NCBI GenBank assembly: GCA_004020875.1
Contig: SAPZ01000010.1
Coordinates: 156,371 to 220,370, forward strand
Reading direction: 5' to 3'
Source: Mesorhizobium sp.
Lineage (GTDB): Bacteria > Pseudomonadota > Alphaproteobacteria > Rhizobiales > Rhizobiaceae
Length of the DNA stretch: 64,000 bases
Shown: piece after piece, positions 12,925 through 37,036 of the stretch
Layout of the letters: the number at the start of each line of letters is the position of its first letter
Position numbering within the stretch: position 1 is the first letter of the stretch
Program-made: the position numbers and the translations under genes
The notes under the pieces: model-generated
What the model was told of the DNA's origin: nothing
Databases searched by the model: none
The model's input: only the letters and a program-made list of their open reading frames with translations

Positions 12925-12952
12925 GGCGGTTCGGCAGCCCGACCGAACCGCC
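12925..12952. terminator. bidirectional terminator hairpin
   Basis: Perfect 10-bp stem GGCGGTTCGG (12925-12934) / CCGAACCGCC (12943-12952) with an 8-base loop, placed between the convergent SDR and GntR genes. The plus-strand 3' side reads tcgtctc, only modestly T-rich. Confidence 0.6.
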
Positions 12953-12961
12953 TCGTCTCAC

Positions 12962-13669: not shown

Positions 13670-13786
13670 ACTTTCAATGCGCGGGCCCGAATGACCCGAT
13701 CTGCCCCCAAATCGCCGGCAGCCCGTCCAATCTAGTATCGCTCGCGCGGCGGTCAATCCCACCTGCCCGGCGCCGGTCGATCGCCC

Positions 13787-13803
13787 GGCGGCATGAAGCC
13801 GCC
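13787..13803 (-). terminator. short GC hairpin at the end of the ABC/racemase operon
   Basis: GGCGGC (13787-13792) pairs with GCCGCC (13798-13803) around a 5-base loop, just at the stop codon of the racemase gene. It lacks a T-run, so it could be a weak terminator or an mRNA 3' stabiliser. Confidence 0.3.
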
Positions 13804-14543: not shown

Positions 14544-14554
14544 TCCAATCAGCC

Positions 14555-16053: not shown

Positions 16054-16056
16054 GGC

Positions 16057-17037: not shown

Positions 17038-17044
17038 GTCGCGA

Positions 17045-22278: not shown

Positions 22279-23240
22279 GCTGCTTCCACCTTTGATGTCT
22301 TGACCGGAAGCGCGTTCATCGCCGCGACCGTGTCGTCGAATGAAACGAGTTTGCCGTCGGAGCCGAGCCCCATCGCCACCTTGGCGGCGACCGCGCTGGC
22401 AAAGCGCGCGGACTGTTTCAGGTCCCAGCCCTTGATGATGCCGACGATGATGCCGGCGGTGAAGGAATCGCCGCAGCCCGTGGTGTCGAAGACCTCGACC
22501 TCGAAGGCGGGCAGATGGAAATCCTCGCCATGCTCGGGCGAGACGTAGACGCCGCCGGCGCCGAGGGTGATGATGCAGTTCTTCACGCCCCTCGCCTTGA
22601 AGAAGGCGGCGACGCGGGCCGGATCGCGGTCATGCGCCATCTCGCCGGCTTCGTCGATGCTGGGCACGAAATAGTCGATGTAGGGAAGGCATGGTTCGAC
22701 CAGCTTCCAGGTCTCCGGCTTCGCCTGGATGAGGTCGAAGGTGGTGATACGGCCAAGCGCCTTGGCGCGCTTCAGCAGTCTGACCGTCGGCTCGCCGTCG
22801 AAGCGCTTCAGCAGGCCGGTGCCGCCGACATGGACGACGGTCGCGTCGAGCGCGGCGTCGAGATCGGCATCGGCGACGTCGAACAAGGTAGCGGTGCCCG
22901 GCACATGCAAGGCGGGACGTTCGCCGTTCGGCCGCACCGGCAAAATGGTGGACGAGGTCTGGACGCTGCCGTCGCGACGCACGAGGCTCGTCTCCAGACC
23001 GTATCTCTTCAGCTTGGCGAGAAACCAGTCGCCCATGTCGTCGGTGCCGAGGGTGGTGACGGCGCGCGTCTTGAGGCCGAGGATGGCGCAGTCCATGCCG
23101 GTGGCGCCGGCCGTGCCGGCGACGGTCATGCGGATCTCCTCGATATAGTCGGCGCGGCCGCCTTCCGGAATGCGCGAGACCGGCCGTCCGAGGATATCGA
23201 GGACGTAGAAGCCGATCGAGCTGACGTCGAATTGGGGCAT
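22275..23240 (-). CDS. PfkB/ribokinase-family carbohydrate kinase
   Basis: 321-residue sugar kinase. The ATG at 23240 opens MPQFDVSSIGFYVLDILGRP; the upstream frame is discarded as out of the protein family. PfkB signature 1 is TVAGTAGATGMD (39-50). Signature 2 is DTTGCGDSFTAG, with Asp258 as the likely catalytic base. It overlaps the SDR by 4 bp and follows a permease gene. It would phosphorylate the imported sugar or a sugar-acid intermediate before aldol cleavage. Confidence 0.9.
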   Translation of the reverse strand: MPQFDVSSIGFYVLDILGRPVSRIPEGGRADYIEEIRMTVAGTAGATGMDCAILGLKTRAVTTLGTDDMGDWFLAKLKRYGLETSLVRRDGSVQTSSTILPVRPNGERPALHVPGTATLFDVADADLDAALDATVVHVGGTGLLKRFDGEPTVRLLKRAKALGRITTFDLIQAKPETWKLVEPCLPYIDYFVPSIDEAGEMAHDRDPARVAAFFKARGVKNCIITLGAGGVYVSPEHGEDFHLPAFEVEVFDTTGCGDSFTAGIIVGIIKGWDLKQSARFASAVAAKVAMGLGSDGKLVSFDDTVAAMNALPVKTSKVEAA

Positions 23241-23260: not shown

Positions 23261-24250
23261 TCAATGGGCGGCGCGGCGCAGGCCGAAGCTCGCGGCCAGC
23301 ACCAGGAAGACCAGCACGCCGATGCCGACCTGCTGCCAGTAGAAATTCCAGCCGACGAGCAGCAGCCCGTTCTTGACGATGGCGAGCAGCAGCACGCCGA
23401 GCAGCGTGCCAATGACCGAGGGCTTGCGCTCGCGACTGAGCGTCGTGCCGATGAAGGTGGCGCCGATGGCGTCGAGCAGGAAGGCGTTGCCGGAGAGCGG
23501 CACGTAGGACTTCACCGTCGCCGACAAGAGGATGCCGGTGACGCCGGCGAGCAGCGCGCACAGCACATGCACCATCGACAATTCGCGCGGCACGCGGATG
23601 CCGGAATACCATGCCACCCCCGGCTGCGCGCCCATCGCCTGGACATAGCGGCCGAAGACCGAGCGATGCAGCAGGAGATGGACCGCGAGCGCCAGGACGA
23701 TCAGCATGATGACCGGCGTCGGTATCCCGAACAGAGCGGTGCGGGCGATGGCATTGAACTGGTCTGCCGCGTAACCGCTCGTGAGGTAGATCGGCTGGCC
23801 GCCGCTGGTGGCGAGCTGCTGCGTGCTCTGGCCGATGAAGAGCACGCCGAGCGTCGCCAGGAAGGGGCTGATGTTGAGCCTGGTGATGAGGATCGCGTTG
23901 AGAATGCCGACGATCAGCGCGGCGCCGAGGCCGCCAGCGACGCCGACCACGCCGCTATAGCCGGCGGCCAAAAGCATGACGAAGATCATGCTTGCCATGT
24001 CGACGGAGACGCCGACCGAGAGATCGATGCCGCCCGAGGAGATGACGATGGTGAGACCCAGCGCCACGATCGCCAGCATGACGACATTGTTGACCAGCAC
24101 GTTGAAGAGGTTGGCCGGTGTCAGGAAAGTCGGGCTCGCAATCGCGAAGAAGATGACGATTGCCGCGAACGCGATGAGCACGCTGTATTTGGCGAGGAAG
24201 CCGCGCACACTCACCTTGGCTGAGTTGTTGTCGTTGGCCGAGACGCTCAT
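23261..24250 (-). CDS. ribose-type ABC sugar permease (RbsC-like), second copy
   Basis: 329-residue inner-membrane permease of the CUT2 type. I chose the ATG at 24250, which overlaps the preceding permease stop by 4 bp. SGGIDLSVGVSVDMASMIF is the CUT2 permease signature, and the C-terminal loop has SGIRVPRELSMVHVLCALLAGVTG. The operon carries two CUT2 permeases, as some transporters of this family do, so the channel is probably a heterodimer. Confidence 0.9.
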   Translation of the reverse strand: MSVSANDNNSAKVSVRGFLAKYSVLIAFAAIVIFFAIASPTFLTPANLFNVLVNNVVMLAIVALGLTIVISSGGIDLSVGVSVDMASMIFVMLLAAGYSGVVGVAGGLGAALIVGILNAILITRLNISPFLATLGVLFIGQSTQQLATSGGQPIYLTSGYAADQFNAIARTALFGIPTPVIMLIVLALAVHLLLHRSVFGRYVQAMGAQPGVAWYSGIRVPRELSMVHVLCALLAGVTGILLSATVKSYVPLSGNAFLLDAIGATFIGTTLSRERKPSVIGTLLGVLLLAIVKNGLLLVGWNFYWQQVGIGVLVFLVLAASFGLRRAAH

Positions 24251-25278
24251 CGCGAACCCTCCGAACCGCGGGCAAAGGATGTGATGGCCACCACCAGCAG
24301 GATCAGCGCGCCCTGCACGCCGTTGACCCAGTAGCTGGAGACGTTGAGCAGCTGGAAGCCGTTCGCGAGCAGGCCGATGAACAGCACGCTGAGCAGCGTG
24401 CCGCCCATGGTCGGCACGAAGCGGCGCGAGAACACAGTGCCGAGCAGTGCCGCGGCCAGCACCGACAGAAGCAGTTCGCCGGAGCCCGGCGTGCTGGCCG
24501 ACAGGCGCGAGACGGTCAGTATGCTCGCCACCGCCGCGCAGAAGCCGCTCAGCACATAGGTGAAGGACACATAAAAGGGCACGCTGATGCCAGCCGCGCG
24601 AGCTGCTTCCGGGTGTCCACCAACGGCGTAGAGCCTCAGGCCAAACGACGTGCCGTGAACAACCACGATCATGATGGCGGAGAAGACGATCAGCGCCCAG
24701 GCGAGCGCGGAGATGCCGAGGAAGCTGCCCGACACCAGCAGGCCGAGCAGCGGGGAGGATGCGCCGACGACCGTGTTCTGGGTGAGCGTGAGTTCCATGC
24801 CGGCCGCGACGTTCAGCACGGCAAGCGTCGCGAGCAGCGGCAGGATGCCAAGGCCGACAACGGCAACAGCGTTGAGCGCCCCGACCGCCATGCCGACAGC
24901 GATGGCCGCTATCACCGAGAGGAAATCGCCATAGCCCATCGACAGAAGCGTGGCGTAGACCGCGGCACAGAGCCCCATATTGGCGGCGATCGAAAGGTCG
25001 ATGCCGCCTTCGGTGACGTTGGAGCCGCCGCCGATGATGACGGCCGTCATGCCATAGGCGAGCACGCCCAGGATCGCCGATTGCTCGACGACGTTGATCA
25101 GGTTGAAGGTCGAGGTGAAGCCCGGCGCGAAGATGACGAAATAAGCCATGATGGCGGCAAAGGCGGCGATCGCGCCAAGCCTCACGACCAAGGCGCCAAA
25201 GCGGCGGCGGGCGCTCTTGGCGGCCGCCTGCTTTTCGTCGGACACGCCGACTTCGGCGTGGAAAACAGTCGCGCTCAT
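24247..25278 (-). CDS. ribose-type ABC sugar permease (RbsC-like), first copy
   Basis: 343-residue CUT2 permease. The ATG at 25278 overlaps the ATPase stop by 4 bp, so I set aside the longer upstream frame. The motif TEGGIDLSIAANMGLCAAVYATL stands in the usual place, as do GGHPEAARAAGISVPFYVSFTYVLSGFCAA and the C-terminal YWVNGVQGALILLVVAI. The two permeases differ clearly in sequence from one another. Confidence 0.9.
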   Translation of the reverse strand: MSATVFHAEVGVSDEKQAAAKSARRRFGALVVRLGAIAAFAAIMAYFVIFAPGFTSTFNLINVVEQSAILGVLAYGMTAVIIGGGSNVTEGGIDLSIAANMGLCAAVYATLLSMGYGDFLSVIAAIAVGMAVGALNAVAVVGLGILPLLATLAVLNVAAGMELTLTQNTVVGASSPLLGLLVSGSFLGISALAWALIVFSAIMIVVVHGTSFGLRLYAVGGHPEAARAAGISVPFYVSFTYVLSGFCAAVASILTVSRLSASTPGSGELLLSVLAAALLGTVFSRRFVPTMGGTLLSVLFIGLLANGFQLLNVSSYWVNGVQGALILLVVAITSFARGSEGSR

Positions 25279-26801
25279 GCGGCCACTCCATCGATGTTCG
25301 AGCGCGCGCCGGACGAAGCCGCCAGCAGCGCATCGCTGTTCATCGCAGGACCGGAGAAGCTGCCGGCAAGCCTGCCGCGATAGACCACCAACACGCGGTC
25401 GCAGACGCCGACCAGCTCGAGCAGATCGGAGGACAGAAGCAGGATCGCCGCGCCCTCGCCCGCCAGGCGATTGAGGAGATTGTAGATCTCGACCTTGGCG
25501 CCGACATCGACGGCCACCGTCGGCTCGTCCAGCACATAGACACGCGACTGGCAGCTCAGCCATTTGGCGATCGCCACCTTCTGCTGGTTGCCGCCGGAGA
25601 GCTCGCGCACCAGTGCGTCGCGATGCGGCGTCTTGATCGACAACTCCTTGATCAGGCCGTCCACAGCCTGGTTCTCAGCGCCACGGCTGACCATGCCGCT
25701 GCGCGAATAGCGGCGCAGGCTGGCCAAGGAGATGTTCTCGCGCACGGAAAGGCCAAGCGCCACGCCATGCGCGCGGCGGTCTTCCGGCAGCATCGCGATG
25801 CCGTCGCGCACCGCTTTGACCGGCGTCGACAGCGACAACTCCCTGCCTTCGACCTTGACCTCGCCGCCATCGGCGGTCTTGAGGCCGAACAGGCACTGCA
25901 CGATCTCCTTGGCGCCGGAGCCGAGCAGGCCGGTGAGGCCGACGATCTCGCCGGCGCGGATGTTGAAGCCGATGTTCTCGAAGCTGCCGCCAAGCCGCAG
26001 GTTTGAAACCTCCAGCACCGGTGCGCCGAGCTCGACCGAGCGCTTCGGAAACATCTCGCCGACATCGCGGGCGATCATCATCGCGATGATCTCGTCGATC
26101 GGCGTCTGCCGCGGATCGACCGTGCCGACATCGGTGCCGTTGCGCATCACGGTGACGCGGTCGCAGAGTTTTTCGATCTCCTGCATGTAATGCGAGATGA
26201 AGACCACGGCGATGCCGTCGTCGCGCAGCCGGCGCAGCACGTCGAACAGGCTGTCGACCTCGCGCTTGACCAGCGCCGCCGTCGGCTCGTCCAGCACCAG
26301 CACGGATGCCTTCTGCGCCAGCGCGCGGGTGATCTGCACCACCTTCTGCTGCGCGGTGGTCAGGTCCTTCACCAGCGTTCCGGCCGGCAATTCCATGCCG
26401 AAGAACCGCTTCAGCAAATCGGCAGCGCGGCGCTCCATGACGCGGCGGCTGACGAACGGGCCGAGGCCGATCTCGTGGCCGAGGAAGACGGCTTCGCCGA
26501 CGGTCGCGGTCGGCACCAGCAACCGATCCTGGTGGATGAAGTGCACACCGAGCTTTTCGACCGAGGCCGGTGTCAGCGAAGTGACGGCCTCGCCATTGAT
26601 GACGATCGAGCCGCTGTCCGGCTTGATGATACCGGCCAGCACCTTGATGATGGTCGACTTGCCGGCGCCGTTCTGGCCGACAAGGCCGAGGATCGAGCCG
26701 CGCGCGATCTCGAGGTTCGCGTTTTCCAAGGCGCGCACCGGACCAAACCGCTTCGAAATGCCTGTCATCGATACAGCAATGTCACGCTTTGCTGTCTGCA
26801 T
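25275..26801 (-). CDS. ribose-type ABC ATPase with two nucleotide-binding domains (RbsA-like)
   Basis: 508-residue twin-domain ATPase of the RbsA/XylG/MglA type. The ATG at 26801 is chosen over an upstream TTG. Domain 1 has Walker A GQNGAGKST and Walker B SVLVLDEPTAALVKRE. Domain 2 has GLLGSGAKE, a variant Walker A without the usual GK(S/T), and Walker B VYVLDEPTVAVDVGAK. Such degeneracy in the second domain is standard in this family. It is the energising subunit of the importer in this operon. Confidence 0.92.
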   Translation of the reverse strand: MQTAKRDIAVSMTGISKRFGPVRALENANLEIARGSILGLVGQNGAGKSTIIKVLAGIIKPDSGSIVINGEAVTSLTPASVEKLGVHFIHQDRLLVPTATVGEAVFLGHEIGLGPFVSRRVMERRAADLLKRFFGMELPAGTLVKDLTTAQQKVVQITRALAQKASVLVLDEPTAALVKREVDSLFDVLRRLRDDGIAVVFISHYMQEIEKLCDRVTVMRNGTDVGTVDPRQTPIDEIIAMMIARDVGEMFPKRSVELGAPVLEVSNLRLGGSFENIGFNIRAGEIVGLTGLLGSGAKEIVQCLFGLKTADGGEVKVEGRELSLSTPVKAVRDGIAMLPEDRRAHGVALGLSVRENISLASLRRYSRSGMVSRGAENQAVDGLIKELSIKTPHRDALVRELSGGNQQKVAIAKWLSCQSRVYVLDEPTVAVDVGAKVEIYNLLNRLAGEGAAILLLSSDLLELVGVCDRVLVVYRGRLAGSFSGPAMNSDALLAASSGARSNIDGVAA

Positions 26802-26869
26802 GGCCGTCAATCCTGGTTGGATGTGACGGGCAGCCGCAGAGCCTGAGCTGCCCGTCGTTTCGTTCCGTC

Positions 26870-27871
26870 CTATTTAACGCCAGCCTTCTCGGCGGCGTCG
26901 AGGAACGGCTTTCCTTTTTCGGCGGCGTTTTCCTTGTTGATCAGCACCGAAGGCACGAAAGTGAACGGCGGCACCTTCTGGCCGGCCAGATATTTGGCGG
27001 CGTTGTCGACCGAGGTCTTGCCGATCTCATAGGGCTGCTGCGCCGCGACCGCGCCGGCCGACGACTTCGGATCCATCACCATCTTGATGACTTCCGGGCT
27101 GCCGTCGATGCCGTAAGTCTTGACCTCGTTGCGGCCGGCCGCTTCGACCGCCTGCGTGGCGCCGATCTGCGGCACATCCCAGCAGGCCCAGACCGCGCCG
27201 ATCGACCCCTTCTCGGGCGACTTGGTCAGCATGTCGGTCACATTCGAGTAGGCGCTCTGCACCGTGTTCGGGATGACGTCGCGCAGCTCGGGCTCGACGA
27301 TCTTCACATCCGGAAACGAGGTCAGCACATATTTCAGCTGGTCGTAGCGGATCTTGCAGACCGGCACGCTGTAGAAGCCGTTGAAGACCAGCACATTGCC
27401 CTTGCCGCCCATGTCGGCGACCATCTGCAGCGCGATCTCGGCGCCGATATTGTAGTTGTTCGACGTGGTGTTGTTGATGGCGTGCGGGGTCGCGGTGTCG
27501 ACGGTGAACAGCGGGATGCCGGCGTCGCGGATCTTCTGCAGCCACGGGTTCAGCACTTCGAGATTGCCGAGCTGCTCGATGATGGCGTCGGGCTTCTGGG
27601 CGATCAGCGTCTGCAACTGCGCGATCTGCTGCTGGTCCTTGCGGCCGGCGTCGAGCGCGATGACCTCGCCGCCGAGCTCCTTGACGCGGTCCTGGATGCC
27701 TTTGAACGCCATCAGGTCCCAATAATGGTCCGTGCCGATGGCCGAGACGCCGATGCGCTTGCCCTTGAGCGACAGCTCCTCGGCGGTCGCGCCGGAGACG
27801 GCGGCAAGGCTGCAAGCCGCCGCCAACCCCAAAGCGAGCGCCTTGACGAGGCCTTTCATGGATCTGGTCAT
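26870..27871 (-). CDS. ribose-type sugar-binding protein (Peripla_BP_4)
   Basis: 333-residue periplasmic binding protein. The signal peptide is MKGLVKALALGLAAACSLAAVSGATAEE, and the mature part starts LKGKRIGVSAIGTDHYWDLMAF, the ribose/galactose-binding fold. A GGGAGGAAA ribosome site precedes the ATG at 27871. It lies between the class II aldolase and the ATPase in one minus-strand operon. The ligand is presumably a sugar, polyol or aldonate, but cannot be read from sequence. Confidence 0.9.
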   Translation of the reverse strand: MTRSMKGLVKALALGLAAACSLAAVSGATAEELSLKGKRIGVSAIGTDHYWDLMAFKGIQDRVKELGGEVIALDAGRKDQQQIAQLQTLIAQKPDAIIEQLGNLEVLNPWLQKIRDAGIPLFTVDTATPHAINNTTSNNYNIGAEIALQMVADMGGKGNVLVFNGFYSVPVCKIRYDQLKYVLTSFPDVKIVEPELRDVIPNTVQSAYSNVTDMLTKSPEKGSIGAVWACWDVPQIGATQAVEAAGRNEVKTYGIDGSPEVIKMVMDPKSSAGAVAAQQPYEIGKTSVDNAAKYLAGQKVPPFTFVPSVLINKENAAEKGKPFLDAAEKAGVK

Positions 27872-27951: not shown

Positions 27952-28599
27952 CTACTTGTCGCGCAGGCCGTAGCTCGCCATGCGCTTGATGACGTTCTCG
28001 ATCTCCTCGTCGGACAGGATCGGCGGCTCGCCGATCTGCAGGGCGCCGTGATACTGGCGCGCCAGCGTCTCGACCTCGACCGCAAGCCACATCGCCTGGG
28101 CGAGGCTCGACCCGACTGCGATCATGCCGTGCTGGGCGAGCAGGCAGGCCTTGCGGTCGCGCAGCGCCTCCACCGCATGCGCCGAAAGCTCTGCCGTGCC
28201 GAACGTGGCGTAGGGCGCGCAGCGTATGTCGCTGCCGCCCGCTACCGCGACCATATAATGGATCGCCGGTATCTTCCGGCCCATGATGGCGATCGTCGTG
28301 CAGTAGGTCGGATGCGCGTGGACAACCGCGTTGACCTCGGGCCGCGCCTTCATGATGTCGAGATGGAAGCGCCATTCGCTCGATGGCGGCAGGCGCCCGT
28401 CGACCTCGCCATCCCAGCCCATGAAGACGATGTCTTCCGGCTGCAGCGTGTCATAGGGCGTGCTGGTCGGCGAGATCAGCATGCCTCCGCCGTGACGACA
28501 GCTGATGTTGCCTGATGTGCCCTGGTTGATGCCGAGCTCATTCATCTGGATGCAGGCGTCGATGATTGCCTGGCGCACATCTCGGTCCGAAAGGGGCAT
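27952..28599 (-). CDS. class II aldolase/adducin family protein, fuculose-phosphate aldolase-like
   Basis: 215-residue zinc aldolase. The ATG at 28599 is preferred; an in-frame TTG at 28626 is possible. The catalytic Glu75 (SSEW) and Zn ligands His94 and His96 (VVHAHPTYC) and His157 (AQHGMIAVG) match the FucA set. Class II aldolases of this kind cleave a ketose-1-phosphate to DHAP and an aldehyde. Next to a PfkB kinase and two SDRs it would split the phosphorylated intermediate. Downstream of the SDR at 28627. Confidence 0.9.
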   Translation of the reverse strand: MPLSDRDVRQAIIDACIQMNELGINQGTSGNISCRHGGGMLISPTSTPYDTLQPEDIVFMGWDGEVDGRLPPSSEWRFHLDIMKARPEVNAVVHAHPTYCTTIAIMGRKIPAIHYMVAVAGGSDIRCAPYATFGTAELSAHAVEALRDRKACLLAQHGMIAVGSSLAQAMWLAVEVETLARQYHGALQIGEPPILSDEEIENVIKRMASYGLRDK

Positions 28600-28626
28600 G
28601 CGATATTCCAATCCTTGCGAGGCCAA

Positions 28627-29403
28627 TTACCAGGCCGTGTAGCCGCCATCGATCGACAGGATTGCGCCCGTCACGTAGCTCGAGGCCGATGACGCCAGGA
28701 ACAGGATCGCCGAGGCGATTTCCTGCGGCGTGCCCAGCCGGCCCATCGGCGTCATGTCGATCCAGGTGTCGAAGAGTTCGGGACGCTCGCGCATCTTCAG
28801 TGTCATCTCGGTGCCGACATAGCCCGGCGCCAGCGCGTTGACGCGCACTCCTGACTTTGCCCATTCGACCGCGAGCGCCTTGGTCATCATATGCACGGCG
28901 CCCTTGCTCACCATGTAGGACGGCGCCGTCTGCGGACGGTTGATGATCAGGCCCGACATCGAGCCCAGATTGACGATCGAGCCCTTTTTGCGGGCGACCA
29001 TCGAGCGGCCGAGGGCGCGCGAGGTCCAGTAGACGCCGTTGACGTTGACATCCATCACCAAGCGCCATTCTTCGTCCGGCGTGTCGAGCGCGGTGTTGAG
29101 GCGCGCGATGCCGGCGCTGTTGACCAGGATATCGACCTTGCCGAAATCACTGACGACCTTGGCAGCCATCGCCTCGACGGCTTGCGGATCGGTGACGTCG
29201 AGCACGCGGCCTTCGACGCTCGCCACTCCGGCGGCCTCGAGCGCTTCGGCAGCGGCCTTCAGCCCATCCGTGTTCATGTCGAGCAGGACGATATTCGCAC
29301 CGCAAGTCCCGAGCGCCTTGGCGGCCTCGAGACCGATCCCGCTGGCGCCGCCGGTGACGACGACGACCTCGCCTGTCAGGTCGAATTGCGACCGGTAATC
29401 CAT
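28627..29403 (-). CDS. SDR family oxidoreductase, first gene of the sugar operon
   Basis: 258-residue classical SDR, with TGGASGIG (17-24), NSAG (91-94), and YMVSKGAVHMMTKALAVEWA carrying catalytic Tyr and Lys. It ends TGAILSIDGGYTAW. A strong ribosome site (GGAGG) precedes the ATG at 29403. It lies just downstream of the candidate operator at 29561-29574 and begins the eight-gene operon ending at 21511. It probably oxidises the imported polyol or sugar to a ketose or lactone. Confidence 0.92.
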   Translation of the reverse strand: MDYRSQFDLTGEVVVVTGGASGIGLEAAKALGTCGANIVLLDMNTDGLKAAAEALEAAGVASVEGRVLDVTDPQAVEAMAAKVVSDFGKVDILVNSAGIARLNTALDTPDEEWRLVMDVNVNGVYWTSRALGRSMVARKKGSIVNLGSMSGLIINRPQTAPSYMVSKGAVHMMTKALAVEWAKSGVRVNALAPGYVGTEMTLKMRERPELFDTWIDMTPMGRLGTPQEIASAILFLASSASSYVTGAILSIDGGYTAW

Positions 29404-29530: not shown

Positions 29531-29559
29531 ACGTTACAGAAGCTTCCCGGGTCCGTCAA
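29531..29559 (-). promoter_or_regulatory. candidate sigma-70 promoter of the sugar operon
   Basis: On the minus strand a -35 TTGACG (29559-29554) and a -10 TAACGT (29536-29531) are separated by 17 bp, about 128 bp upstream of the SDR start. The -35 abuts the operator palindrome. The -10 is poor, so this is a tentative call. Confidence 0.4.
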
Positions 29560-29560
29560 T

Positions 29561-29574
29561 CTGGTTATAACCAG
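29561..29574. promoter_or_regulatory. HutC/GntR operator palindrome, copy 1
   Basis: CTGGTTATAACCAG is a perfect 14-bp palindrome upstream of the sugar operon start. Its 12-bp core TGGTTATAACCA recurs at 35797-35808, upstream of the divergent acyl-CoA operon and thiolase. The GntR gene at 29605-30474 lies between the two sites and is the likely binder. Confidence 0.7.
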
Positions 29575-29604
29575 AAAACAGAATCTTTTTTGGATGTACG
29601 CAAG

Positions 29605-30474
29605 TCAGGTGCGATCGACGCCGTTCACCGTCGCCGACGGCTGCTCGACCGCCATATGGATGCGCGCGACGGAGGAGTTGTAGAAGGCCTCGTAATATTC
29701 GAGCGCGGCGCCGTCGGCGTCATAGGCGATCGACTCGATCTCGATCAGCGGCGTGTTGGCGGCGACGCCCATCTCATCGGCCTCTTCCTTGGTGGGAAGG
29801 GCCGCGCGCAGCCAGCGGTCGGCGCGCTTCACCGTCAGGCCGAAGACGGCGCGGATGGTGCCGAAGATCGACTGGTTTTCCGACAGGATGTTCTCCAGCC
29901 CCGGCACCCTATGCCCCGGCAGGCTGATGCGCGTCATGGTGATCGGCGTGCCGTCGGTCATATAGACGCGGCTGATGCGGACCACGCTGCCATTGGCGGG
30001 AATGCCGAAGACCTTGGACTCCTTCTCGCTCGGCGGGCAGCGGTAGACCTCCAGCGTGCGGGTCGAGACCTTGTGGCCCTTGGCGGTCAAATCGTCGAAC
30101 ACGCCGAGATTGGCGGTCATGAAGTCGACATGCTCGCGGGGAGCTGCGACGAACATGCCCTTGCGCGGCATCTTGATGATGCGGCCCTCGTTGGAGAGCG
30201 AGCCGATCGCGGCGCGCACGACGGGACGCGAGACGCCAAAGAAATCGCAAAGCGCCTGCTCCGAGGGAATGCGCGAATTGGCAGCCAGCAGGCCGGTGTT
30301 GATCGCCTCCTCGACCTGGTTGCGCAACTGCACCCAGAGGGGTGCGGCCTCGTCGCGGTTGAGCTGGACCTTGGAGCCGATCGAGCGGAAAGCCTCGGCC
30401 GCCTCCGCATCTTCCTGGTCGTAACGAGGACGCCCGCGCATTCTGGTTGCTTGTTCCATCCGGTCCTGCCGCAT
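29605..30474 (-). CDS. GntR family regulator, HutC/UTRA subfamily
   Basis: 289-residue regulator with winged HTH (LWVQLRNQVEEAINTGLLAANSRIPSEQALCDFFGVSRPVVRAAIGSLSNEG) and a UTRA effector domain (GIPANGSVVRISRVYMTDGTPITMTRISLPGHRV; LEYYEAFYNSSVARIHMAVE). The N-terminal ~25 residues are a charged extension. It is the last gene of the acyl-CoA operon (36 bp after the MFS gene) and lies just upstream of the sugar operon. It probably represses both, including its own transcript. The UTRA ligand is likely the pathway substrate or a phosphate ester. Confidence 0.9.
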   Translation of the reverse strand: MRQDRMEQATRMRGRPRYDQEDAEAAEAFRSIGSKVQLNRDEAAPLWVQLRNQVEEAINTGLLAANSRIPSEQALCDFFGVSRPVVRAAIGSLSNEGRIIKMPRKGMFVAAPREHVDFMTANLGVFDDLTAKGHKVSTRTLEVYRCPPSEKESKVFGIPANGSVVRISRVYMTDGTPITMTRISLPGHRVPGLENILSENQSIFGTIRAVFGLTVKRADRWLRAALPTKEEADEMGVAANTPLIEIESIAYDADGAALEYYEAFYNSSVARIHMAVEQPSATVNGVDRT

Positions 30475-30510
30475 TTCAGTTGCCGCGACTCAACAAGCGG
30501 CAGCGCCTCC

Positions 30511-31749
30511 CTAGCGGAGACCACCGGCCATTTTCACGCTCTCCGGCAAGTTTCGCAACCATAGCATGGCGGCCGCCCCCAGAAGCGGTCCGGGAACCAG
30601 GAGCAAGAAGGCCCAGCGCCAGCCGCCGATGAAATCGGCGAAGCGCGGCGTCAGCCAGATGGCGAGCACCGTCAGCGCGAAACCGGCGCCCAGTTGCACC
30701 GAAAGCGCGGTGCCGACGAAGCGGCGGTCGGCAAGCTCGGTGACGGCGGCGGAGAACTGAGCGGAATCGCCGATCACCGAAACGCCCCAGACGATGGCCA
30801 CCAGCATGAATAGCCAGAGCGGGCCGGTGAAGAGAAAGCCCATCAGCAGCGCGCAGCTTCCCGAGACGATCATCATGCCGGCGGTGGTGGCGGTGCGGCC
30901 GATGCGGTCCGACAGATAGCCGCCGAGCAGACAACCGAGGATGCCGGAAGCCACGACAAGGAAGGTCGATAGCGAGGCGATGGCGGCGGTTCCGATCGCC
31001 TGCGCCTCGAATGAGGCGCGCGTGTAGGCGAGCAGCCAGGCCCACATGGCATAGAGCTCCCACATATGGCCCAGGTAACCAAGATTGGCGAGCAGCAGCG
31101 GCTTTTCTCGAAACACCTGGCCGATGCGCGAAGGCTCGAACACTGCCTTGCCGAAGGGATAGGGTCCTTCCTTCGCGAACAATAGGAAGAGCAGCGCGCC
31201 CGCGGCCGTGGCCACGCTGGTGGCGGCAACCACGGGACGCCAGTCGAGCGCGGTCGAGACGGCGCGGAAGAGATGCGGCAACGCCGAGCCGACAGTCAGC
31301 GCGCCGATGACGGCGCCGAGCGCCAGTCCCCTGTCGCGCTCGAACCAGGTGGCGACCAGCTTCAGCGCCGGCGGATAGACGCCTGCGAGCGCAACACCGG
31401 TGACGATGCGCGCGGCGATCACGCCGCCAGGCCCGGGATGGAAGAGCAGCGTCGCGTTGGCCAAAGCGGCGACGAGCGCCGCCGCCGCCATCAGGTGACT
31501 CAGCCGTACGAGGTCGGGAAGATTGACTAGACTCGCCGCCAGCGCGCCTAGAACGAAGCCGACCTGCACGCCATTGGTCAGCCAGGCCTCGGCGCTCGCG
31601 CCCAACGCAAGCTCCTGCCTCAGTTCGGGAAGGATCGCGGTCGCCGAGAACCAGGTGGTCAGCGACAGGACGACTGCGAGGCAAAGCAGCGACAGCACGC
31701 GCCAGCGCTCGCTGTCGGCCGCCATGCCAAGCCCGCCGGCCGTGCTCAT
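30511..31749 (-). CDS. MFS transporter, metabolite:H+ symporter-like
   Basis: 412-residue inner-membrane carrier with about twelve spans. The ATG at 31749 overlaps the MaoC stop by 4 bp, so I used it rather than the longer frame. SDRIGRTATTAGMMIVSGSCALL is the loop between helices, and the N-terminus has SLTTWFSATAILPELRQELALG. It is co-transcribed with acyl-CoA enzymes and may import a short carboxylic acid that the neighbouring CoA ligase then activates. Confidence 0.87.
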   Translation of the reverse strand: MSTAGGLGMAADSERWRVLSLLCLAVVLSLTTWFSATAILPELRQELALGASAEAWLTNGVQVGFVLGALAASLVNLPDLVRLSHLMAAAALVAALANATLLFHPGPGGVIAARIVTGVALAGVYPPALKLVATWFERDRGLALGAVIGALTVGSALPHLFRAVSTALDWRPVVAATSVATAAGALLFLLFAKEGPYPFGKAVFEPSRIGQVFREKPLLLANLGYLGHMWELYAMWAWLLAYTRASFEAQAIGTAAIASLSTFLVVASGILGCLLGGYLSDRIGRTATTAGMMIVSGSCALLMGFLFTGPLWLFMLVAIVWGVSVIGDSAQFSAAVTELADRRFVGTALSVQLGAGFALTVLAIWLTPRFADFIGGWRWAFLLLVPGPLLGAAAMLWLRNLPESVKMAGGLR

Positions 31750-32198
31750 GCGCCTTGCAGCGGTACGGTGAAGACCGTGGCCGTGCCGGTGAGGCAAAGC
31801 TCGCCCTGGCCGTTGCGCACGCTGGTCTCGATCTTGCAGATAGGCTTATCGGGCCGCACTTCCTTGACCTCCACGCGTCCGGTGATCTCCTCGTCAAGGC
31901 CGACCGCCTTGACGAACTTCCACGCCACTTCGAGGAACACTGTTCCGGGGCCGGGCAGATCTTCGGCGACCAACGCGTTGAGGATGCCGGAAGTCACGCC
32001 GCCCTGAACGATCAGCTTGCCGAACACCGACTTCTCGGCCAGCGCGCGGTCGTAATGCAGGGGATTGTGGTCGCCGGTGATGTCGGTGAAGGCCTCGATG
32101 TCGCTCATTCTCGTGCGGCGCGTGCGCTCGGCGAAGGCGCCGACCTGCGGACGGCCTTTTACGACACCCGCCCAACCGTCTTTCATTGCGGTGCTCAT
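31746..32198 (-). CDS. MaoC-family enoyl-CoA hydratase (hot-dog fold)
   Basis: 150-residue single hot-dog domain. The hydratase motif is TGDHNPLHYD with Asp43 and His48 as the catalytic pair, followed by GKLIVQGGVTSGIL. These enzymes reversibly hydrate trans-2-enoyl-CoA to (R)-3-hydroxyacyl-CoA in the cytoplasm. It overlaps the DUF35 gene by 4 bp and the MFS gene by 4 bp, so all are translationally coupled. With DUF35 and the thiolase-fold protein it resembles a hydratase-aldolase cassette. Confidence 0.88.
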   Translation of the reverse strand: MSTAMKDGWAGVVKGRPQVGAFAERTRRTRMSDIEAFTDITGDHNPLHYDRALAEKSVFGKLIVQGGVTSGILNALVAEDLPGPGTVFLEVAWKFVKAVGLDEEITGRVEVKEVRPDKPICKIETSVRNGQGELCLTGTATVFTVPLQGA

Positions 32199-32635
32199 TT
32201 AGGCTTCTCCTCTGCATCGGGTTCCACTGGTTTGAAGGCAGGTAGGACGCGACCGCCGATGGCGGTCGGCGCAAGCTGAAGCATGTCCCCGACCTGTAGC
32301 GGCTGTGTGCCGGGCAGGATGAAGCTCAGCATCGTTGGGCCTTCGGCCAATTCGATCAGGCCCACCACATAGGGTGCCGCCGGCAGCCAGCCGGGATGGC
32401 CTGGCTTATGCACCTTGGAAAAGGATTTGAGCCGCCCCCTGCCCGATGCGTCTTTCCAGAGCAGGCGCCTGCTCCAGCAATGCGGGCAGATCGGGCGCGG
32501 ATAGAAGACGTCCTTGCCGCAATCCTCGCAGTGCTGGATGGTCAGCCGGCCCTCGGCGGCGGCATCCCAGAACGGCCTGGTCAGCGCGGTGATCGTCGGA
32601 CCGGGGGTCTTCAGCGTGTTGAGATCGACGGACAT
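32195..32635 (-). CDS. DUF35 / OB-fold zinc-ribbon protein
   Basis: 146 residues. An N-terminal zinc ribbon with Cys36, Cys39, Cys50 and Cys53 (HCEDCG...PICPHC) is followed by an OB-fold half (SFSKVHKPGHPGWLPAAPYVVGLIEL). DUF35 proteins pair with thiolase-fold partners, for example the ChsH2 DUF35 part with the steroid aldolase Ltp2. Here it overlaps the thiolase-fold gene by 1 bp (TGATG), consistent with a fixed complex. Confidence 0.9.
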   Translation of the reverse strand: MSVDLNTLKTPGPTITALTRPFWDAAAEGRLTIQHCEDCGKDVFYPRPICPHCWSRRLLWKDASGRGRLKSFSKVHKPGHPGWLPAAPYVVGLIELAEGPTMLSFILPGTQPLQVGDMLQLAPTAIGGRVLPAFKPVEPDAEEKPK

Positions 32636-33786
32636 CAGGCGGCTCCCAGCACGAGCGCGGTCGCCTCGCTCATCGTCGCGCCGTTGCCAGTGACCAGTGC
32701 CAGCCCGGCCTTGCCGATCTGGCGTTCGCCCGCCTCCCCGCGCAGCTGACGCACCGCCTCGACGACATGGGTCATCCCGCCAGCAAGGTCGGGCTGGCCG
32801 AAGCCGAGCTGGCCGCCATGCGTATTGAGCGGCCTGTCGCCCTTGTGGGAAAGATCGTGGTCGCCGAGCCACGCGCCGAACTGGCCCGGCGCGCAGAGGC
32901 CGGCATCCTCGATCGTGGTTGCGACCATGATCGTATAGCAGTCGTAGAGCGACAGAAGATCCATCTCATCGGCCCGCGTGCCGGACTGCGCGAAGGCCTG
33001 CGCCATGGCGCTCTTCAGCGGACCGGAGGTGAGGCTTGGCGCGTGGCTGACGGCGCGATGCGTGACCTTCTCGCCGGCGCCGAGCAGATGGACGGGCGGC
33101 TTGCGCAACGACCGCGCGCGTTCGGCGGAGGTGACGACAACCGCTTCGCCGCCGGCGACCGGCATGACGATTTCGAGGAGACGCAGCGGCGAGGCGATCA
33201 TCGGCGAGGCAAGCACCGTTTCGACATCGGCCGGCTTGCCGAAGAAGATCGCATCCGGATTGAGCTGCGCGTTGGCGCGCGCCGCCGCGGCGATCCTGGC
33301 GAAATCCCGCGCAGTCGAACCGTATTCCGCCATATGCGCCTTCATCAGCAGCGCGTAGGAGATATTGGCGCCCGAGGCGCCGAACGGCACGTCGAACTCG
33401 CGGATCGGATTGCGGTTGGGCGAGCGCGGCGCTGTCTCCTCGCGATTGTTGGCGAGCACGCACAGCACCGCCTCGCACATGCCGGCCTCGATCGCGGCGG
33501 CCGCGCGCCAGACCATGCCGGCGCCGGACGCGCCGCCGAGGTCGACGACGTTGGCCATGGTCGGCGCGAGCCCCAGATATTCGGCAATCGTTGCCGGAAC
33601 ATGCTGCGGCGTCTCGCCGACCTGCGGTCCTACCAGCAGCCCGTCGATCGCCGCCGGATCCAGCCCGGCGTCGAGCACCGCCAGGCGCGAGACGTCGGCG
33701 ATCATCTCCAGCGTCGTCACGCCGCTGGTCAAACGTTGCGGCTTCAGCTCGCCGATGCCGACGATCGCTCCCTTCGACCGGCTCAT
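32635..33786 (-). CDS. thiolase-fold protein without catalytic Cys (Ltp2/SCP-x-like)
   Basis: 383 residues using the ATG at 33786, which overlaps the CoA-ligase stop by 4 bp. The fold is the lipid-transfer/SCP-x type of thiolase (NTHGGQLGFG, 321-330). The usual xCASG nucleophile segment reads GGASG (84-88), with Gly85 in place of Cys, and the C-terminal CxGGG motif is VTGNGA. A Tyr-rich LYDCYT segment (280-285) lies where Ltp2-type retro-aldolases have catalytic Tyr. It is therefore more likely an acyl-CoA aldolase than a thiolase. Residue roles are inferred from Ltp2. Confidence 0.87.
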   Translation of the reverse strand: MSRSKGAIVGIGELKPQRLTSGVTTLEMIADVSRLAVLDAGLDPAAIDGLLVGPQVGETPQHVPATIAEYLGLAPTMANVVDLGGASGAGMVWRAAAAIEAGMCEAVLCVLANNREETAPRSPNRNPIREFDVPFGASGANISYALLMKAHMAEYGSTARDFARIAAAARANAQLNPDAIFFGKPADVETVLASPMIASPLRLLEIVMPVAGGEAVVVTSAERARSLRKPPVHLLGAGEKVTHRAVSHAPSLTSGPLKSAMAQAFAQSGTRADEMDLLSLYDCYTIMVATTIEDAGLCAPGQFGAWLGDHDLSHKGDRPLNTHGGQLGFGQPDLAGGMTHVVEAVRQLRGEAGERQIGKAGLALVTGNGATMSEATALVLGAA

Positions 33787-35729
33787 GCTGCCCTGCCCCG
33801 GTCGAGCGCTCGGTATTCTTCGAGACATGCCGGATTGGCGAGCGAAGCCATGTTCCTGACAGGCTTGCCTTCGAGCGTGGTGCGGGCGGCGCCCTCGACA
33901 CGCTTGCCGTTCAGAGTGTAGGGCACGGCCTGCACCGCGTGGATGCGATGCGGCACGTGGCGCGGCGAAGCGCCTTCACGGATCGCTTTGCGAATTCGCG
34001 CGGCAAGCTCGGCGCTCAGCGCATAACCGTCATTGAGCTTGACGCAGAGCACGATCTCCTCGTCGCCTTCGACGGGCGCGCCAAAGACCAGGCAATCCTC
34101 GATCTCGGCGAAGTTTTCGCAGGCCGCGTAGATCTCGGCGGTGCCGATGCGGACGCCGCCGGGCTTCAGCGTCGTATCGGAGCGACCGTGGATGACGCCA
34201 GAGCCGTAAACCGTCATCTCTGCGACATCGCCATGCGTCCAGATCTCGCGGCGCGCGGCGAAATAGGTGGCGTGGTAGCGCGCATCGCCATCCTTGCCCC
34301 AGAAGGTCAGCGGCATGGAGGGGAACGGCTCGGTGCAGACGAGATCGCCCTGGCGGCCGATCACCGGCGAATTGCGCTCGTCCATTACTGCGACTGCAAG
34401 ACCAAGCCCCTTCACAGTCAGCTCGCCGCGCCGCACGGGATGGAGCGGCGACCCCAGCAGGAAGCAGCCGATGATCTCGGTGCCTCCGGAAATGGAGGCG
34501 AAGATCATGTCGCGTTTCACATGCTCGTAGACCCAGTCGAACTGCCCGGGTGAGACGGGCGCGCCGGCCGACAGCAGCGAACGCAGCGGCGAAAGGTCAT
34601 GCAGGCGTCCCGGCGCGTAGCGTTCGGCCGCAAGTGTCGCCAGATATTTCGGGCTGGTGCCGAAATGCGTGACCTTGGCGTGCTCCGCCACTTTCCAGAG
34701 CGGACTGGGATCGAGACCATCGGCCGATTTCAGGATCGGCGCGCCGTCATAGAGCACCACGCTCGCGCCGCAGGCCAGACCTGAGATCAGCCAGTGATAC
34801 ATCATCCAGGCGGTATTGGTGTACCAACTCATCACGTCGCCGGGACGGACGTCGCCGTGCAACAGGTGCTCCTTCAGATGCTGGAGCAGCACGCCGCCGG
34901 TACGATGGACGATCGCCTTCGGCGCGCCTGTCGTGCCAGAGGTGTAGAGCACATAGGCCGGATGGTCGAAGGGCACGCGCTCGAAGGTGAGAGGACCGGC
35001 GCCGCCGAAATCGTCGAACGAAATACAATCCGCCGCGCCGTTTGGCCGAGTGCCCGGCTCGCCGGTCAGCACCAGCGTCGTCACCGTCGGCATCGCGGCG
35101 ACGATTTCGGCCAGCCTGCCGGAGATGTCGTGCTCCTTGCCCGCATAGCGATAGCGCGGTGATGCGAACAGCACCTTCACGCCGATCTGGCCGAGGCGGT
35201 CGACGATCGCGGCGGCGCCGAAATCGGGCGAGCAGGACGACCAGACGGCGCCGATGGAAAGCGTCGCCAAAAGTGCGATGAGGCCTTCGACGCGATTGGG
35301 CAGGATGCCGCCGACGCAATCGCCTTTGCCGATACCGGCCGCGCGCAGGCCGTCGGCCGTTCTAGCGACGAGCCGGCGCAATTCGCTCCGTGTTATCGCA
35401 CGGAAATGACCGCTCTCGTCGGCCTCGATGACAGCAATCCTCTCCCCATCGCCGCGCAGGAGGTTTTCCGCGAGATTAAGCGAGGCTTCCAGCAAGAAGC
35501 GGCTTCCCGTCATCGGCGCATTGTCGTCGCGCAGGAAGGCGATCGGGCCCGGTTCGCCGATCACTTCCGCGAAATCCCACACCGCGCGCCAGAAGGCGCC
35601 GGGGTCGCCGATCGACCAGCGATGCAGCGTCTCGTAGTCGCGCGGATCGAAGCCGCAGGCCATCGAAAAGCGCGCAAGGTTGGACGATTGGAACGCGGCC
35701 GGCGCCGGCGTCCAAAGCACGGATGACAT
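33783..35729 (-). CDS. acetoacetyl-CoA synthetase-like acyl-CoA ligase
   Basis: 648-residue ANL-superfamily ligase, the length and start (LWTPAPAAFQSSNLARF) of acetoacetyl-CoA synthetase. The ATP loop is YTSGTTGAPK (262-271), the hinge region is GRSDTTLKPGGVRIG, and the adenylation Lys is about residue 609 in LNGKRVEG. It would activate acetoacetate or another 3-oxo or hydroxy acid with ATP and CoA. The ATG at 35729 follows a GGGAGGAAA site. First gene of the acyl-CoA operon, 132 bp from the divergent thiolase. Confidence 0.9.
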   Translation of the reverse strand: MSSVLWTPAPAAFQSSNLARFSMACGFDPRDYETLHRWSIGDPGAFWRAVWDFAEVIGEPGPIAFLRDDNAPMTGSRFLLEASLNLAENLLRGDGERIAVIEADESGHFRAITRSELRRLVARTADGLRAAGIGKGDCVGGILPNRVEGLIALLATLSIGAVWSSCSPDFGAAAIVDRLGQIGVKVLFASPRYRYAGKEHDISGRLAEIVAAMPTVTTLVLTGEPGTRPNGAADCISFDDFGGAGPLTFERVPFDHPAYVLYTSGTTGAPKAIVHRTGGVLLQHLKEHLLHGDVRPGDVMSWYTNTAWMMYHWLISGLACGASVVLYDGAPILKSADGLDPSPLWKVAEHAKVTHFGTSPKYLATLAAERYAPGRLHDLSPLRSLLSAGAPVSPGQFDWVYEHVKRDMIFASISGGTEIIGCFLLGSPLHPVRRGELTVKGLGLAVAVMDERNSPVIGRQGDLVCTEPFPSMPLTFWGKDGDARYHATYFAARREIWTHGDVAEMTVYGSGVIHGRSDTTLKPGGVRIGTAEIYAACENFAEIEDCLVFGAPVEGDEEIVLCVKLNDGYALSAELAARIRKAIREGASPRHVPHRIHAVQAVPYTLNGKRVEGAARTTLEGKPVRNMASLANPACLEEYRALDRGRAA

Positions 35730-35796
35730 GGATTTCCTCCCGCAACGCAGGCCGGCTCGATGGCGCGACCTTGCCCGCCGATGCATTTCAGATTAT

Positions 35797-35808
35797 TGGT
35801 TATAACCA
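35797..35808. promoter_or_regulatory. HutC/GntR operator palindrome, copy 2
   Basis: TGGTTATAACCA is a perfect 12-bp palindrome in the 131-bp divergent gap between the CoA-ligase operon and the thiolase gene. It matches the core of the site at 29561-29574, so one regulator could control both directions here as well as the sugar operon. Confidence 0.7.
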
Positions 35809-35860
35809 GAATGTCAAGCGACGATCGCGGCTCTGCAATAGGCATTTGGGAGGACGAAAA

Positions 35861-37036
35861 ATGGACGCTGTTTATATTGTTGCTGCCAGACGCACGCCTA
35901 TCGGCAAGCTGAACGGCGCGTTCGCCAGCCTGTCGGCGGCAGAGCTTGGCGGGCAGCTTATCCAGGCGATGCTGGCGGAAACGCAGATCGCGCCCGACGC
36001 CGTCAGCGAGGTGATCATGGGCCAGGTGCTGACCGGTGGCGCGGGGCAGAACCCGGCGCGGCAGGCCGCCCTCAGGGCTGGGCTGCCGGTCAGCGTGCCC
36101 GCCATGACCGTCAACAAGGTCTGCGGCGCAGGCCAGAAGTCGATCCATCTCGCAGCGCAGGCCATACGTTGCGGCGACGCGGATTGCGTGATCGCCGGCG
36201 GGCAGGATTCGATGACATCGGCGCCACACTTCATTTATGGCGCCCGCGGCGGCATCCGCATGGGCGACAGGACGATCAAGGATTCGATGATCACCGACGG
36301 GCTATGGGATGCCTTCCATCAGGTGCATATGGGTGTAACCGCCGAAGCGCTGGCGCAGCGCTACCAGATCACCCGCGAGGAGCAGGACCGGTTCGCGCTG
36401 CGCTCGCAGGAGAAGGCGGACGCCGCCATCCGGGCCGGCAGGTTTAATGATGAGATCGCGCCTGTGTCGGTCAAGGCCAGGCAAGGCGATCTCGTCATCG
36501 ACCGCGACGAGCATCCCAATCCCTCCACCACCATGGAGGGCCTCGGCCGGCTCAGGCCGGTCTTCGATACCGCTGGAACGATTACGGCCGGCAACTCATC
36601 GGGTCTCAATGACGGCGCCGCAGCAGTGCTGGTGATGTCGGAAGCGCGGATGAGGGAACTCGGCCTAACGCCCCTCGCCCGTGTCGCGTCCTACGCTTCC
36701 GCCGGTGTCGAGCCGATGGACATGGGCCTGGGACCGGTGGCGGCCTCGCGCCGCGCGCTCGACAAGGCAAGCTGGCGCGCGTCTGACCTCGACGCTATGG
36801 AGATCAACGAAGCCTTCGCCGCGCAGGCTATCGCCGTCAATCGTGAGATGGGCTGGGACGAGGACATCATCAATATGAGCGGCGGCGCCATCGCGCTCGG
36901 GCATCCGCTGGCCGGCTCCGGCTGCCGCATCGTGGTGACGCTGTTGCACGAAATGGTCCGCCGAGATGCGCGGAAGGGCCTTGCCTCGCTCTGCATCGGC
37001 GGCGGCCAGGGCGTCGCGATCTGCCTGGAGCGGTGA
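35861..37036 (+). CDS. acetyl-CoA C-acetyltransferase (thiolase)
   Basis: 391-residue classical thiolase. The catalytic residues are at the family's standard places: Cys88 (VNKVCGAG), His about 348 (GHPLAGSG) and Cys378 (AICLER end). It interconverts acetoacetyl-CoA and two acetyl-CoA. I chose the ATG at 35861, which follows GGGAGG. It is divergent from the acyl-CoA operon and shares the operator at 35797. Unlike the neighbouring thiolase-fold protein, this one keeps its nucleophile. Confidence 0.95.
   Translation: MDAVYIVAARRTPIGKLNGAFASLSAAELGGQLIQAMLAETQIAPDAVSEVIMGQVLTGGAGQNPARQAALRAGLPVSVPAMTVNKVCGAGQKSIHLAAQAIRCGDADCVIAGGQDSMTSAPHFIYGARGGIRMGDRTIKDSMITDGLWDAFHQVHMGVTAEALAQRYQITREEQDRFALRSQEKADAAIRAGRFNDEIAPVSVKARQGDLVIDRDEHPNPSTTMEGLGRLRPVFDTAGTITAGNSSGLNDGAAAVLVMSEARMRELGLTPLARVASYASAGVEPMDMGLGPVAASRRALDKASWRASDLDAMEINEAFAAQAIAVNREMGWDEDIINMSGGAIALGHPLAGSGCRIVVTLLHEMVRRDARKGLASLCIGGGQGVAICLER

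Follow-up and report, generated by a model that had tools for sequence, protein, structure and literature searches.

We analysed a 64,000-nucleotide stretch of a Mesorhizobium sp. genome (contig SAPZ01000010.1, positions 156,371 to 220,370; hereafter the window), in which a sugar-import operon and an acyl-CoA operon carry copies of one operator palindrome. The acyl-CoA operon ends in the gene for a HutC-type regulator of the GntR family (29605-30474), and this regulator very probably controls both operons and a divergent thiolase gene through the shared operator, as a single regulon. Eight sugar genes, six acyl-CoA genes (that of the regulator included) and the thiolase gene make 15 in total, the layout given in the initial annotation. 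The regulator and its predicted sites are:

29605..30474, - strand: regulator of the GntR family, HutC type (289 aa); closes the acyl-CoA operon and passes the Pfam cut-offs for GntR and UTRA
29562..29576, - strand: operator site 1, upstream of the sugar operon; 12-bp palindrome (29562-29573) inside a 15-bp identity to site 2
35797..35811, - strand: operator site 2, in the gap between the acyl-CoA operon and the thiolase gene; 12-bp palindrome (35797-35808)

A palindrome shared by two operons

The initial annotation had described a perfect 12-bp palindromic core common to CTGGTTATAACCAG (29561-29574) and TGGTTATAACCA (35797-35808). Both copies are present, and the identity between the sites is longer than the core, at 15 bp (TGGTTATAACCAGAA on the + strand, 29562-29576 and 35797-35811). 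On the - strand, which is the coding strand of both operons, it reads TTCTGGTTATAACCA, in the same orientation at each. Both sites have the form TG-GT-TATA-AC-CA, an even palindrome with GT and AC 4 nt apart, the spacing described for most HutC operators (PMC4494728); the TATA centre differs from the consensus MTAK.

A search for further copies across the genome (6,661,811 bases, 103 contigs), as the initial annotation had suggested, found the exact 12-mer at these two sites only, against 0.077 copies expected from an independent-base estimate using the base composition of the window. The reversed control pattern did not occur. Within the window alone the evidence is modest, as 2 of 100 shuffles also gave two matches at up to two mismatches, the level at which sites 1 and 2 are the only copies there. 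The case for an operator draws its weight from exact uniqueness in the genome and from conservation in relatives.

For conservation we compared 40 loci, all with both gene sets: the window, 24 Mesorhizobium-type loci, one locus of Taklimakanibacter, one Rhizobium contig, six plasmid records (from Rhizobium, Shinella, Ochrobactrum and Sulfitobacter) and seven further genomes of the same family. The counts leave out L030 (decayed remnants), L027 (from the genome of L046), L070 (taken to share the genome of L014), loci in which the modules are not together (L028, L050, L051, L080-L085), loci with the acyl-CoA module only (L078, L079) and short loci around single matches; plasmid records H1 and H5 and genome G765 lie outside the fetched-locus comparison. 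At up to two mismatches, a site is present in the sugar-operon gap at all 40 loci and upstream of the acetoacetate--CoA ligase family gene (AACS) or the thiolase gene at 32. Matches at this level arose in shuffles at 0.21 per 64 kb, or a chance of about 1 in 1000 per 200-350 bp searched, and somewhat higher where a gap is rich in AT. When the Mesorhizobium-type gaps (25) are aligned, the base of the window is kept in 98.7% of core cells in the sugar gap and 99.3% in the AACS gap, compared with 80% and 74% in the rest of these gaps. Six of the 32 loci (L071-L076) encode operon proteins only 49-75% identical to those of the window, yet keep the sites, so that the conservation reflects more than recent descent. 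Uniqueness in the genome and conservation across loci together rule out a chance palindrome.

At one of these loci, L019, the site was found via the AACS-side range; the thiolase-side range missed it since the thiolase matches in two pieces. These pieces overlap, as if the gene were frame-shifted (2421-3592, M. amorphae CCNWGS0123), and the same is seen for the last sugar-operon gene, a short-chain dehydrogenase (SDR2), of L026 (15969-16683, M. escarrei). In L071-L076 a second, weaker site lies 27-28 bp upstream of the main operator in the sugar gap (6/6 loci), which suggests cooperative binding. In the excluded locus L030 (Mesorhizobium sp. M1B.F.Ca.ET.045.04.1.1, 7108-9213) the cluster is decayed. 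Pieces of the thiolase, AACS, MaoC and GntR genes and a gene for a major facilitator superfamily (MFS) transporter are left, and the fetched stretch has no match to the retro-aldolase, DUF35 or sugar-operon enzymes described below and no operator at up to two mismatches.

The initial annotation had proposed one regulon of about 15 genes. This is upheld by the presence of both sites at 32 of the 40 loci, by a regulator of the appropriate family and by a gel-shift target of a related protein (see below). What does not hold is a universal link, as the remaining eight loci have no site at the acyl-CoA genes and all have a TetR match beside them; a tblastn search with the L048 TetR found no such match in the fetched stretch of the 32 site-bearing loci. 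An AACS tree comprising 14 operator-type and 9 TetR-type rows requires three changes between the two types of control, at least two of which are forced by well-supported branches; the tree comes from a short search with SH-aLRT support only and uses 7 of the 25 Mesorhizobium-type rows.

We identified an N-terminal GntR winged helix (PF00392, 51.3 bits; cut-off 27) and a C-terminal UTRA domain (PF07702, 102.5 bits; cut-off 23.8) in the regulator, and on this basis assign it to the HutC subfamily. NagR/YvoA and DasR are among its closest solved relatives. With these proteins and AgaR2 of Streptococcus suis it shares the winged helix plus UTRA architecture, an operator with GT and AC 4 nt apart and an association with the control of sugar catabolism. 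AgaR2, itself a HutC protein, is described as binding TTGTGGTTATAACCAGTT in gel shifts, and this target contains the same 12-mer (PMC4694137). Of four papers in which the 12-mer appears, this is the one of relevance. The predicted system differs from all three in its targets, which would be other sugar genes and an acyl-CoA operon, and in two of the three base contacts of NagR, which are not kept.

Close relatives of the regulator occur at 28 named loci (23 in Mesorhizobium, 2 in Rhizobium, 1 in Taklimakanibacter and 2 unclassified). At E <=1e-60 it is found in 3 of 297 genomes of the order and in 2 of 8 genomes of the genus of the window, its own included. The string TCTGGTNATNACCAGATTGAC occurs in 2 of the 297 genomes, both of them carriers of the regulator; the third carrier, Taklimakanibacter, has a diverged form. 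The cluster is accessory. Rhizobium lusitanum encodes a GntR homologue of 56% identity, with sites of the same form beside different genes and a third, weaker site elsewhere in the locus. The motif therefore appears to travel with the regulator, not with the target genes. On that record (L050, p_3, 7926-17533), sites precede genes for nucleoside ABC transport (uptake) and a hydrolase (7926) and genes for an aldolase, RpiB and a kinase (14845), a candidate second regulon for nucleoside-derived pentoses.

The sugar and acyl-CoA gene sets

The sugar operon encodes a CUT2 transporter, an aldolase, a kinase and two dehydrogenases:

28627..29403, - strand: SDR1, short-chain dehydrogenase, first gene of the operon
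27952..28626, - strand: class II aldolase of the L-fuculose-1-phosphate aldolase (FucA) type
26870..27871, - strand: solute-binding protein (SBP) of the CUT2 transporter; relatives include 3L49 and 4WT7, the latter with bound allitol
25275..26810, - strand: CUT2 ATPase with two ABC stretches
24247..25278, - strand: CUT2 permease 1
23261..24250, - strand: CUT2 permease 2
22275..23240, - strand: PfkB-family sugar kinase
21511..22278, - strand: SDR2, short-chain dehydrogenase, last gene of the operon

The transporter has the components of the CUT2 class, namely a Peripla_BP_4 SBP, an ATPase with two ABC_tran stretches and BPD_transp_2 permeases. Of the two closest solved relatives of the SBP (3L49 and 4WT7), the structure 4WT7 is described with bound allitol (PMC10318746). 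This makes a polyol or ketose a likelier substrate than a sugar from which acetoacetate is formed.

Over about 205 residues the aldolase can be aligned with FucA, and the aligned positions include the Glu and His that we take to be the catalytic and zinc-binding residues of FucA-type enzymes. It falls short of the cut-off of the fucA equivalog TIGR01086 (255.7 vs 400.25 bits) and passes the broader PRK08087 (267.9 vs 264), and is thus assigned only to the FucA-type class II aldolases. The stereochemistry of FucA-type enzymes would suit D-allulose, D-ribulose and similar ketoses, whose cleavage would give dihydroxyacetone phosphate (DHAP) and glyceraldehyde or glycolaldehyde. The operon resembles FucA-type polyol or sugar pathways with a CUT2 transporter in combining that transporter with a dehydrogenase, a kinase and a class II aldolase with DHAP and an aldehyde as expected products. 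It differs from them in its PfkB kinase, its two SDRs, the absence of an isomerase among the operon genes and the coupling to a CoA module.

In several relatives, an aldehyde dehydrogenase gene ends the sugar operon. It is not present there in the window, and the genome has no clear orthologue, the best two of 28 matches being 56-57% identical and on other contigs. A gene for an FAD-dependent oxidoreductase is added next to SDR2 in L047 (26234-27679) and in L074-L076. A histidine/aromatic ammonia-lyase-like gene (window 19961-21457) is convergent with the sugar operon and is kept in that place in part of the Mesorhizobium loci. It was rejected as a member of the regulon given its convergent orientation, the lack of an operator beside it and the several loci at which it was not seen (some of which end soon after SDR2).

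The acyl-CoA operon and the divergent thiolase gene comprise, besides the regulator:

33783..35729, - strand: AACS, acetoacetate--CoA ligase family, second paralogue (TIGR01217)
32635..33786, - strand: protein of the thiolase fold whose active site is of the Sal retro-aldolase type (YDCY motif, Gly in place of the thiolase nucleophile); start set to match relatives
32195..32635, - strand: DUF35 partner protein (ChsH2 zinc ribbon plus OB-fold)
31746..32198, - strand: MaoC-type (enoyl-CoA hydratase-like) protein
30511..31797, - strand: MFS transporter
35861..37036, + strand: acetyl-CoA C-acetyltransferase-type thiolase, divergent

The AACS scores above the equivalog cut-off (TIGR01217, 690 bits, cut-off 520.9; PRK03584, 748.3 bits, cut-off 639) and is 44% identical to the other copy in the genome, on contig C28. 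In rhizobia, AcsA2 of Sinorhizobium meliloti is reportedly an acetoacetyl-CoA synthetase that acts with a thiolase in the polyhydroxybutyrate cycle. The locus shares with that cycle the combined chemistry of an AACS and an acetyl-CoA acetyltransferase; it differs in that its AACS is the second paralogue, usually found next to the sugar operon.

The initial annotation had read the whole acyl-CoA set as CoA activation and thiolysis. This is ruled out by gene 32635-33786, the relatives of which are called thiolase in public records. Its best solved relative is CtSal (9MYR), described as an aldolase of bile-acid side chains, in which Tyr302 and Cys304 were shown to be important, Gln347 and Gln352 are present and Gly occupies the position of the thiolase nucleophile (PMC12329534). 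Counted on an alignment to 9MYR, Y281-D282-C283-Y284, Q326, Q331 and G85 correspond to these residues and are invariant in all eight aligned relatives. The nucleophilic cysteine of thiolases is absent (Gly instead), and the equivalent of CtSal Gly391 is Ala. Judged from these residues, the protein has a Sal-type retro-aldolase active site, and the only canonical-type thiolase of the locus is the divergent gene.

Adjoining the retro-aldolase gene is that of the DUF35 partner (PF12172 and PF01796 above cut-off), whose zinc site is Cys-x2-Cys-x10-Cys-x2-Cys. C4 is given as the canonical DUF35 zinc pattern, and Shy has Cys3His1 (PMC12329534); for this reason we do not file the genes as a bile-acid system. 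The likeness to Sal/Shy of Comamonas testosteroni (9MYR) and to Ltp2-ChsH2 extends to the thiolase fold, YDCY, both glutamines, the Gly at the nucleophile position, the DUF35 partner and an adjoining MaoC gene. However, DUF35 and MaoC are separate genes here and one protein in Shy. In addition, a ligase of the AACS family is encoded in the operon, a steroid gene cannot be recognised there, and the substrate is probably small.

A related module on a Rhodococcus opacus plasmid (L051, 12052-19863) has genes for a ligase (30% identity), retro-aldolase (65%), DUF35, MaoC, thiolase and MFS-type proteins (one of the latter by match and one by eye), without a sugar operon. As judged from this plasmid, the acyl-CoA module is one that crosses phyla. 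At two loci with the acyl-CoA module only (L078 in G909 and L079 in G761), an aldehyde dehydrogenase gene lies inside the module, and its product may therefore act on the product of the retro-aldolase.

One pathway or two substrates

Among 356 genomes of the family, this type of AACS (>=60% identity) occurs in 12 and the SBP in 11 (>=65%, a limit chosen after seeing a gap between 65% and 60%). Ten genomes have both, at most 9 kb apart in nine, and the co-occurrence has a hypergeometric probability of 9e-17, uncorrected for relatedness. In all eight plasmid records with this AACS, the SBP is at most 7 kb away. In another 28 family genomes the SBP match is 56-60% identical and this type of AACS is lacking. 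In the four that were fetched, the aldolase, kinase, SDRs and GntR gene are missing beside the SBP, so these look like another transporter. Class-wide searches for the retro-aldolase (E <=1e-100, 1/385) and for the SBP (E <=1e-80, 1/289) matched only the genome of the window itself.

Some genomes depart from this pattern, and they speak against joining the two gene sets too closely. The AACS is not beside the SBP in 3 of the 12 carriers: in G761 a distance of 1.86 Mb separates the two, and no SBP match at E <=1e-110 was obtained in G909 or in G765, an assembly of about 770 contigs. Also counting against a single pathway are G947, with the SBP and no AACS, Rhizobium Leaf306, with a sugar operon that lacks the retro-aldolase and an AACS of only 46% identity, and the Rhodococcus module. 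By gene order, the two halves are strongly linked, with exceptions. Given close linkage in most carriers and separated or lone modules elsewhere, the chance that both halves form one shared pathway is about even.

Alternatively, the operator link is real but the two operons serve separate substrates that merely co-occur, for example a plant-derived polyol and a short acid from the same source, with co-regulation for timing and not for one pathway. We place this a little below an even chance; its regulatory claim is that of the preferred reading. It accounts for the eight loci with a TetR gene and no site at the acyl-CoA genes, and for an acyl-CoA module that stands by itself in G909, as does a related one in Rhodococcus, and at a distance from the sugar operon in G761, as well as for the Leaf306 operon. 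The transporter genes of the module also suggest that it imports an acid of its own: besides the MFS gene there is, in Sulfitobacter, a TIGR00366 protein, presumably a short-chain fatty acid transporter. Two separate substrates explain less easily why the modules are closely linked in nine of the 12 family genomes and in all eight plasmid records, and why this linkage survives rearrangement. In Taklimakanibacter (L046) the thiolase and GntR genes are divergent, and a single run holds both gene sets, the sugar operon first and the AACS set after it.

The initial annotation had suggested a deoxy or branched sugar whose cleavage gives a 3-oxo acid such as acetoacetate, which AACS and thiolase would convert to acetyl-CoA. 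That AACS passes the acetoacetate--CoA ligase cut-offs and stands next to a canonical-type thiolase agrees with this, and the aldehyde dehydrogenase added in several relatives could oxidise an aldehyde to the acid. However, the MaoC protein and the Sal-type retro-aldolase would be left without a role, FucA-type cleavage would, on chemical grounds, need an unusual dideoxy heptulose-like substrate, and the likeness of the SBP to an allitol-bound protein points to polyols. We consider this route unlikely. A deoxyribonate route in which a beta-keto acid cleavage enzyme produces acetoacetate found no support, as none of the families matched by the 15 genes is of this kind.

Mode of control and a possible pathway

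Putative promoters, identified by eye and from conservation, lie beside both sites:

29531..29559, - strand: putative sugar-operon promoter; -35 TTGACG (29554-29559), 17-bp spacer, -10 TAACGT (29531-29536)
35790..35817, - strand: putative AACS-operon promoter; -35 TTGACA (35812-35817), 16-bp spacer, -10 TAATCT (35790-35795)

In the AACS gap, a conserved CTTGACA is followed by the operator and then by TAATCT or a variant, so that the operator occupies the putative spacer. In the sugar gap, the operator stops 2 bp upstream of the putative -35 box; the -10 TAACGT is less conserved among relatives. A pattern search found TTGAC boxes at a fixed distance from the operator in both gaps at all 24 loci L003-L026. 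An operator between -35 and -10 at one promoter and abutting -35 at the other suggests repression, and the layout favours repression with shared derepression. As the regulator gene ends the AACS operon, negative autoregulation is also favoured. Taklimakanibacter (L046) has two operators, at 17011 and 17034, 23 bp apart and around the -35 box of the sugar promoter. An Rfam scan had no match.

Several observations weigh against a HutC regulon of this kind. Neither gap yields a promoter in scans with a strict consensus. With up to one mismatch allowed, the 12-mer occurs at 3 places in the genome vs 7 for the reversed control (the third being inside an open frame on contig C25), and the 16-mer TCTGGTTATAACCAGA at up to three mismatches at 5 places (the two sites and three others) vs 7. 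Imperfect copies are therefore not above control, and weak further targets can be neither demonstrated nor excluded. Moreover, 25 of the 40 loci compared are close Mesorhizobium-type relatives, and the locus counts are therefore not independent.

Activation would be compatible with the position of site 1 as well, since this site lies just upstream of the putative -35 box. The regulator would then activate the sugar operon from site 1 (centre at about -44) and repress the AACS operon from site 2, and the HutC protein NagRBt is reportedly a dual regulator, by the title of its description. However, the second Taklimakanibacter site is inside the spacer of the sugar promoter, where it suits repression, and NagR, DasR and AgaR2 are described as repressors. 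Such a mixed mode is quite improbable.

The base contacts bear on whether the GntR protein binds these sites at all. Those described for NagR are made by Arg38, Arg48 and Gly69 (PMC4333415). Of these, only the equivalent of Arg48 is kept (Arg83; Lys in distant copies), and the other two are Gln/Thr and Arg here; the site lacks the G at -7 that Gly69 contacts in NagR and keeps the G at -5 contacted by Arg38. With two of three contact residues replaced, another regulator might bind the palindromes and the GntR gene be a bystander, but this is very unlikely, as the spacing and core fit HutC operators, the GntR gene lies beside a site in R. lusitanum with different targets, and it is the only regulator gene among the 15, although the loci were not searched systematically for other shared regulators.

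Returning to repression by the HutC-type protein, we propose the following course. The regulator would bind the palindrome in TTCTGGTTATAACCA at its two places and repress the two leftward operons, its own gene included, and the divergent thiolase gene, with the operator between -35 and -10 at the AACS promoter and touching -35 at the sugar promoter. Derepression would follow when the UTRA domain binds a small molecule of the sugar pathway, for which a phosphorylated ketose is a plausible candidate. The CUT2 transporter would import a polyol or sugar, from which SDR1 would most likely make a ketose; the PfkB kinase would phosphorylate it, and the FucA-type aldolase would split the ketose-1-phosphate into DHAP and an aldehyde. 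In the other half, the MFS protein may import a short carboxylic acid, to be activated by the AACS-family ligase and hydrated by the MaoC protein, if flux runs in this direction. The Sal-type retro-aldolase with its DUF35 partner would cleave the hydrated acyl-CoA, and the divergent thiolase would finish acetoacetyl-CoA.

In its fullest form, which we put forward tentatively and regard as possible, not probable, this reading takes the halves as one undescribed pathway for a compound that combines a polyol or sugar with a short acyl group (an ester, a conjugate or a deoxy sugar). The Sal-type retro-aldolase would then have a small acyl-CoA, not a steroid, as its substrate, and the acyl half would have changed at least twice between control through the shared HutC operator and control by a local TetR. 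Among the literature matches listed for Mesorhizobium GntR/AACS/sugar-ABC genes, allitol catabolism, ribulose-1-phosphate aldolase and acsA2, no title or start of an abstract describes this regulon.

For soil and plant-associated bacteria, the locus offers a regulon that can be tested directly and a pathway that may be new. It would also place a Sal-type retro-aldolase outside any visible steroid gene set, and the two regulatory designs found in relatives may represent a natural case of regulator replacement at a conserved gene set.

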